Assembly (NCBI RefSeq): GCF_000474945.1
Contig: NZ_AXDW01000004.1
Location: 62,001-126,000, forward strand
Direction: 5' to 3'
DNA from: Solimonas soli DSM 21787
Lineage (GTDB): Bacteria > Pseudomonadota > Gammaproteobacteria > Nevskiales > Nevskiaceae
Length of the DNA: 64,000 nt
The notes under the pieces are model-generated. The model saw only the letters and a program-made list of their open reading frames with translations. It did not search any database and was not told where the DNA came from. The translations under genes were made by a program, and so were the position numbers. Positions 3,484 through 5,268 of the stretch are shown one piece after another (the first letter of the stretch is position 1; the number at the start of each line of letters is the position of its first letter).

Positions 3484-5268
3484 ATGCGTAGTCACTATTG
3501 CGGCCAGGTCACCGAAGCGCTGACCGGAGAAACCGTCACCGTCTGCGGCTGGGTTCATCGCCGGCGCGATCACGGCGGCGTGATCTTCATCGACCTGCGT
3601 GACCGCGAGGGCCTGCTGCAATGCGTGTTCGATCCGGACACGCAGAAGGCGTTCGCCGCCGCCGACAAGCTGCGCTCCGAATACGTGGTCAAGATCACCG
3701 GCCGCGTGCGGCCGCGCCCGACCGGCACCGAGAATGCGAACCTGACGACCGGCAAGATCGAGTTGCTGGCCAAGGAATGCGAGCTGCTGAACAAGGCGGA
3801 AACCCCGCCGTTCCACATCGACGACGAAACGGTCGGCGAGGACACGCGCCTCAAGTACCGCTACCTCGACCTGCGTCGTCCGCAGATGCAGAAGAACCTG
3901 CGCCTGCGCCACGACGTCATCAAGCGCATCCGCGATTTCATGGATGCCAACGGTTTCGTCGATGTCGAGACGCCGATCCTGACCAAGGCGACGCCGGAAG
4001 GCGCGCGCGACTATCTGGTGCCGTCGCGTACACACCCGGGCAAGTTCTTCGCATTGCCGCAGTCGCCGCAGCTGTTCAAGCAGCTGCTGATGATGTCCGG
4101 CCTCGACCGCTACTACCAGATCGCGCGCTGCTTCCGCGACGAGGACCTGCGCGCCGACCGCCAGCCGGAATTCACGCAGCTCGACGTCGAGACCTCGTTC
4201 CTGAGCCAGGAACAGATCATGGCGCTGATCGAGGGCCTGGTGAAGGATCTGTTCAAGGCCGTGCTCGACGTCGATCTCGGCACGCTGCCGCACATGAGCT
4301 TCGAGGAGGCGATGCGCCGCTACGGCTCCGACAAGCCGGACCTGCGCAATCCGCTCGAACTGGTCGATGTGAAAGACCTCGTCGCCGACGTCGATTTCAA
4401 GGTGTTTTCGGCGCCGGCCAGTGATCCGAAGTGCCGCGTCACCGCGCTGCGCGTGCCGGGCGGTGCCAGGCTGTCGCGCGGCGAGATCGACAAGTACACC
4501 GAATTCGTCAAGGTCTACGGCGCGCGCGGTCTCGCGTACATCGTCGTCGACGACAAGGCCAAGGGCCGCGACGGCCTGCGTTCGCCGATCGTCAAGAACT
4601 TGCACGACGCCGCCCTGACCGGCATTCTCGAGCGCACCGGCGCACAGACCGGCGACGTCATCTTCTTCGGCGCCGACAAGAGTAAGATCGTCACCGATGC
4701 TTTAGGCGCTTTGCGCCTAAAGCTTGGACAAGACTTGGGTCTTACCCAAAGCGCCTGGAAGGCGCTTTGGGTGGTCGACTGGCCGATGTTCGAGTGGGAC
4801 GAGGACGACGGTCGCTGGGTCTCGCTGCACCATCCGTTCACCGCGCCGAAGCCCTTCGATGCGGCGGCGCTGCGCGCGAATCCCGGCGCGACGCTGTCGC
4901 AGGGCTACGACATCGTGCTCAACGGCGTCGAGATCGGCGGCGGTTCGGTGCGCATCCACGCGCCGGACGTGCAGCAGGCGGTGTTCGACCTGCTCGGCAT
5001 CGGCCCCGAGGAGCAGAAGGAGAAATTCGGCTTCCTGCTCGAGGCGCTGTCGTTCGGCGCGCCGCCGCACGGCGGCCTGGCGATCGGCCTCGACCGCCTC
5101 GTCATGCTGATGGCCGGCGGCCAGTCGATCCGCGAAGTGATCGCCTTCCCGAAGACGCAGACCGCGCACGATCCGCTGACCTCGGCGCCGAGCGAGGTCG
5201 ACCTGCGCCAGCTGCGCGAACTGAGCATCCGTTCCACGGTGCAGCCGAAGGAAACGGCGGCGGCCTGA
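3484..5268 (+). CDS. aspS: Aspartyl-tRNA synthetase
   Basis: The 594-residue class II synthetase charges tRNA-Asp (possibly also tRNA-Asn) in the cytoplasm. It begins [13 protein letters not shown] and has the N-terminal OB-fold anticodon-binding domain, the catalytic core with motif 2 ([21 protein letters not shown]), the bacterial GAD insertion domain, and motif 3 ([14 protein letters not shown]) near the C-terminus. Length matches bacterial AspRS. Codons 405-431 are odd: the DNA there forms two perfect hairpins with leucine codons unlike the rest of the gene (see the repeat at 4699-4772), although the protein sequence stays family-like and in frame. Confidence 0.97.
4699..4772 (+). repeat. 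Double-hairpin stretch embedded in aspS
   Basis: Hairpin 1 is GCTTTAGGCGC (4699-4709), loop TTT, GCGCCTAAAGC (4713-4723), an 11-bp perfect stem. Hairpin 2 is ACCCAAAGCGCC (4744-4755), 5-base loop, GGCGCTTTGGGT (4761-4772), a 12-bp perfect stem. Both contain GGCGCTTTG. Between them TTGGGT/ACCCAA and AAGAC/GTCTT offer alternative pairings. In the aspS frame all seven leucines here are TTA, TTG, CTA or CTT, never the CTG/CTC used elsewhere. It looks like a palindromic unit accommodated in the reading frame, or a selected mRNA structure. Confidence 0.8.

Follow-up and report, generated by a model that had tools for sequence, protein, structure and literature searches.

How did two perfect hairpins, written in codons that are rare in the rest of the gene, come to lie within aspS, an essential gene of Solimonas soli DSM 21787? 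The gene was analysed in a window of 64,000 nucleotides, the whole stretch of DNA under study, where it occupies positions 3484..5268 on the + strand and encodes an intact aspartyl-tRNA synthetase (AspRS) of 594 amino acids, as identified by its open reading frame and by Pfam and PDB matches to bacterial AspRS. Pfam places an OB-fold at residues 18-102, the class II synthetase domain at 119-559 and a GAD domain at 308-407. Hairpin 1 (4699..4723, + strand) has a perfect stem of 11 bp and a loop of 3 nt, and hairpin 2 (4744..4772, + strand) a perfect stem of 13 bp, also with a 3-nt loop; the earlier note had the first stem and the 20-nt spacing right, but gave the second as 12 bp. The linker between them (4724..4743, + strand) is written in the same rare-codon style (GGA CAA, TTG GGT CTT) and, by eye, also contains short palindromes, of which TTGGGT-CTT-ACCCAA at 4735-4749 would form at the expense of hairpin 2. 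As that note had also stated, this stretch of aspS adds no length when compared with the relatives aligned here, and the encoded protein is still an ordinary AspRS, with homologous residues throughout.

Codon use departs from that of the gene over the same interval. All seven leucine codons between 4702 and 4767 are indeed of the kinds TTA, TTG, CTA or CTT (in order: TTA, TTG, CTA, CTT, TTG, CTT, CTT), whilst only 3 of the 59 leucine codons elsewhere in aspS are, and the reported GGA, GGT and CAA codons are all found. Across 126,348 codons of guessed open reading frames from 464 kb of this genome, this is the top 24-codon window for rare leucine codons (7/7), the next best having 6/7.

We compared the gene with its closest relatives, two sister species (L007 and L008) that share about 93% amino acid identity with it over the whole of aspS. 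Between 4683 and 4773 on the + strand, 28 sites are unlike both sisters, and the first and last of these sites, together with the local drop in identity, delimit a divergent patch at about residues 400-430, where the protein leaves the GAD domain and re-enters the catalytic one. Within the patch, the DNA is 65% and 67% identical to that of the sisters, as compared to 88% upstream and 96% downstream, so that a short tract is far more divergent than both its flanks, as in a mosaic gene. At the 28 sites the window has G or C nine times, and sister L007 25 times. A scan of 12,493 overlapping 24-codon segments from 175 gene pairs with two sister species (90 + 85), retaining segments of at least 60% amino acid and at least 80% flank identity, returned the patch as the two sharpest identity drops; the frames scanned were stop-to-stop, with third-position divergence as the sole filter, and may include some wrong ones. 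Scanning the whole of aspS revealed comparably large local breaks in other relatives. One of them, L170, displays a break at codons 362-388 (window positions 4567-4647) that is stronger than that of the window and low in GC3, and is perhaps another short import into the same gene.

The residues of the patch point to a particular relative. Eight of them are unlike both sisters (I, T, L, Q, Q, S, A and K), and Nevskia sp. HOG36 (L030/L036/L065/L149), a member of the window's family from a different genus, matches seven of the eight, whilst the 91 other rows, duplicates included, match at most four; outside the patch, HOG36 matches the window at only 8 of 33 differing residues. Over 37 amino acids, HOG36 is 92% identical to the patch, as compared to 81% or less for the 21 other family genomes compared. 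Of 63 sliding protein windows, those starting at residues 406 and 415 place HOG36 first among 47 relatives and the one at 397 places it second; in the remaining 60 it ranks between 6th and 47th. Across the 48 family-level genes, the window and HOG36 are mutual best partners in the patch and have the two lowest patch-minus-flank values (-0.128 and -0.077, respectively), and in the whole-gene scan the patch of HOG36 stands out no more than two other places in its aspS. HOG36 itself is not the donor, since its patch DNA is only 77% identical to that of the window and its leucine codons there are mostly CTG.

At the DNA level, HOG36 matches 15 of the 28 differing sites, whilst unrelated AT-richer rows match up to 13. 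Trees were built from 31 of the 48 family-level rows. The aspS sequence outside the patch rejects a grouping of the window with HOG36 (AU p = 5e-7), whilst the tree of the 99 patch bases pairs the two with a support of about 92. Over these 99 columns, a tree with the window beside L007 and L008 scores 1.1 log units above the free tree (p 0.54), and one that groups it with six members of its genus is likewise not rejected (p 0.24). Setting the residue matches beside the DNA-site counts and the patch tree, we regard the protein evidence for this kinship as strong and the DNA evidence as moderate.

Taken together, this analysis suggests, with somewhat better than even confidence, that a tract of about 90 bp in aspS was replaced by homologous recombination with a HOG36-like aspS of the same family and of lower GC3, and that the hairpins are incidental to this exchange. 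The putative donor would be an unsampled, HOG36-like family member whose aspS DNA has a lower third-position GC, and the tract may have entered as a micro-import, for instance after DNA uptake. The reading frame and the length of the protein would be kept because the imported tract encodes the corresponding part of the same protein.

The search for such a donor covered 58 genomes of the family, 85 of the order, 369 of the class and 398 of the phylum (sets that overlap and include the genome itself), and none with a GC3 near 0.55 was found among them. Searching genome contigs with the core pattern returned HOG36 as the sole match and no donor, and viral contigs held no donor with matching DNA. 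Candidates from further afield were rejected: the best of 11 phage records reached 62.9% identity over 35 amino acids, the best of 36 plasmid records 69.4% over 35, the best match other than the genome itself among the 369 class genomes 76% of 38, and the best among the 398 phylum genomes 81%, but there the stretch is one residue longer and has other motifs. The genome encodes ComEC and DprA domains; they are also found in 10/14 and 11/14 control genomes, respectively, so their presence says little about uptake.

With a second-order Markov model as reference (40 simulations), the 64 kb hold four stems of at least 11 bp where 0.8 are expected, and one of at least 13 bp where 0.05 are expected. 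The word GGCGCTTTG occurs three times in the patch (twice on the + strand and once on the - strand) and once more in the window (shuffle mean 1.02). As RNA, positions 4690-4780 are predicted to fold at -52.4 kcal/mol, as compared to a shuffle mean of -28.4 (z -7.2) in a control that ignores the code. Under a fixed protein sequence, 7 of 2000 samples drawn with the codon use of aspS and the next gene reach the energy of the 84-nt core (-50.5), as does 1 of 2000 permutations of the core's own codons, whereas flat, GC45, GC50 or GC60 codon use each gives none in 2000. A stem of at least 13 bp arose somewhere in the core in 20 of 2000 synonymous versions with its own codon use. The encoded protein helps the stems, as the coding of GALRL and QSAWKAL favours palindromes.

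This bears on how the stems could have become perfect without being the cargo of the import. In common codons, GALRL would favour a GGCGC/GCGCC core, and the residue stretch of hairpin 2 would stand one base short of a perfect 13-bp stem. Changing CTA at 4717 to CTG creates exactly one mismatch in the stem of hairpin 1, and changing CTT at 4765 to CTG exactly one in that of hairpin 2, so that both stems lie one or a few bases from imperfect forms, the pattern looked for in quasipalindrome correction. As restoring a single rare leucine codon to CTG costs one mismatch per stem, the foreign codons were perhaps followed by a template-switch correction of one mismatch in each, yielding the perfect stems; we consider such a finishing step plausible.

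Could template switching have done all of this without foreign DNA? Repeated switching between the arms might have rewritten the native stretch, a process that, according to PMC8794818, makes or repairs stems. The single-base distance of both stems from imperfect forms and the patch tree, which does not reject kinship with the sisters, are in keeping with it. Local mutation alone nevertheless leaves unexplained the rare codons of the linker and the seven of eight residues held in common with HOG36. Moreover, changing TTA at 4702 to CTG loses two pairs, so copying one native arm would not give the observed codons. Nor is there a general excess of long coding stems in this genome, with 17 in 379 kb of guessed open reading frames, where two sisters have 13 (221 kb) and 14 (197 kb); as the density in this sample does not exceed theirs, a genome-wide hairpin process was rejected. 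We therefore regard an origin by local mutation alone as unlikely. An artefact of assembly or mixture, in which the native stretch gave way to reads from a related organism, would suit a patch shorter than a typical read and set between conserved stretches; the patch is, however, in frame and of full length, and the genome is listed at 0.11% contamination and 99.79% completeness, and we hold this to be very doubtful.

The stems could instead be selected, the synonymous codons having been bent to fit hairpins, in mRNA or in single-stranded DNA, that delay the ribosome between the GAD domain and the catalytic core or serve in the autoregulation of aspS. Selection on mRNA structure had been proposed in the earlier note, and pairing far above that of synonymous controls speaks for it. 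The relatives do not retain the stems, however, which leaves a conserved RNA switch unsupported: in the 47 other family-level aspS genes, the hairpin columns pair at 5-10 of 11 positions for hairpin 1 and at 4-10 of 13 for hairpin 2, and no perfect stem of at least 11 bp occurs in their aligned aspS codons, the longest being one of 10 bp elsewhere in the gene in L154. HOG36 is a partial exception, as its columns pair at 10 and 10 positions (G-U counted), the sole row near the window. For hairpin 1 this is 10 of 11, and by eye an outer pair that is T-A in the window reads C-G in HOG36. Against its own synonymous control, HOG36 is second of 48 for pairing in these columns (p 0.009), and the allele may thus bring some of the pairing with it, whilst its folding energy in the patch is ordinary (p 0.23), and the other 46 family-level genes do not retain the stems. 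The patch columns of L017, which are written in ordinary codons, reach -52.7 kcal/mol through different pairings (z -3.05 relative to its synonymous control) and so fold more strongly than the window, which cautions against taking stability for function. No terminator-like or promoter-like site was found, and the highest-scoring Rfam hit, sraL, reached 22.7 bits where the cut-off is 39 (E 0.0034 for 301 bases) and was taken as chance, with BTH_s19 weaker still. Structure would also leave unexplained the rare codons of the linker and the amino acid changes, and we judge selected stems to be distinctly unlikely. A related and very unlikely possibility is that gene conversion carries a two-hairpin coding module from genus to genus within the family, its structure being maintained, such that the window and HOG36 hold related versions at the same place, with stems improved whilst the protein is preserved.

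The remaining proposal was that a palindromic DNA unit had replaced the native codons whilst keeping the protein. Replacement by foreign DNA is supported; what came in would, however, be a homologous stretch of aspS that also brought eight amino acid changes, and not a palindromic unit. The two hairpins do have a common 9-nt word and are arranged like a REP pair, as might be expected of a mobile element of the REP, MITE or Rickettsia type within aspS. However, a search of the whole genome for copies of the unit or its hairpins returned nothing beyond two 14-nt matches, which leaves a mobile unit unsupported; neither hairpin was found in the viral contigs, and the patch adds no length and is homologous in its residues throughout. 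We consider such an element extremely improbable. REP elements are likewise short palindromes that may lie inside genes, but they form repeated families, whereas the aspS patch is a single copy. Rickettsia palindromic elements in open reading frames are in-frame insertions that lengthen the protein; they too are short palindromes, some of them within genes, and differ from the single-copy aspS patch, which brings no added length.

A separate hairpin, on CTACTTCTCTTTGC / GCAAAGAGAAGTAG, recurs in several genomes of the window's genus and has no copy in the window. It is found at L113:9540-9573 (the genome studied here), L098:7802-7835, L103:10812-10845 and L104:14739-14768, with half of it at L011/L107 33-45, and it lies near aspS in L098, L103 and L104. 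It ends in GTAG, as in the GTAG-tagged REPs that are reportedly named in the REP literature.

Known systems offer partial parallels to the import that we favour. In Helicobacter pylori, micro-imports after natural transformation have a mean length of 28 bp, and of 48-56 bp in the assay of PMC9426483; the likeness lies in a short, homologous, foreign patch within an otherwise native gene, and the approximately 90 bp in aspS is of that order. In that bacterium, transfer was observed and the DNA came from a conspecific strain, whereas for aspS we infer exchange across genera from a putative donor. Quasipalindrome correction, as described in PMC8794818, resembles the aspS case in that imperfect inverted repeats with short loops turn perfect, but alone it could produce neither the codons of the linker nor the changed residues. 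Nematomorph mitochondrial genes carry numerous perfect inverted repeats of up to 284 bp in coding sequence, according to PMC6649704, which also names the Rickettsia palindromic elements. These repeats likewise lie in a conserved coding stretch, leave the protein undamaged and are not conserved between species; they are many and mitochondrial, whereas aspS has two short stems in one bacterial gene.

The aspS gene of S. soli thus provides a small, clear case of an essential gene that is probably mosaic over some 90 bp, apparently through exchange between genera, and shows how two perfect hairpins can arise in coding sequence although they form no separate element. If what the window and HOG36 share is structural, selection on bacterial coding palindromes, or their spread, becomes testable.
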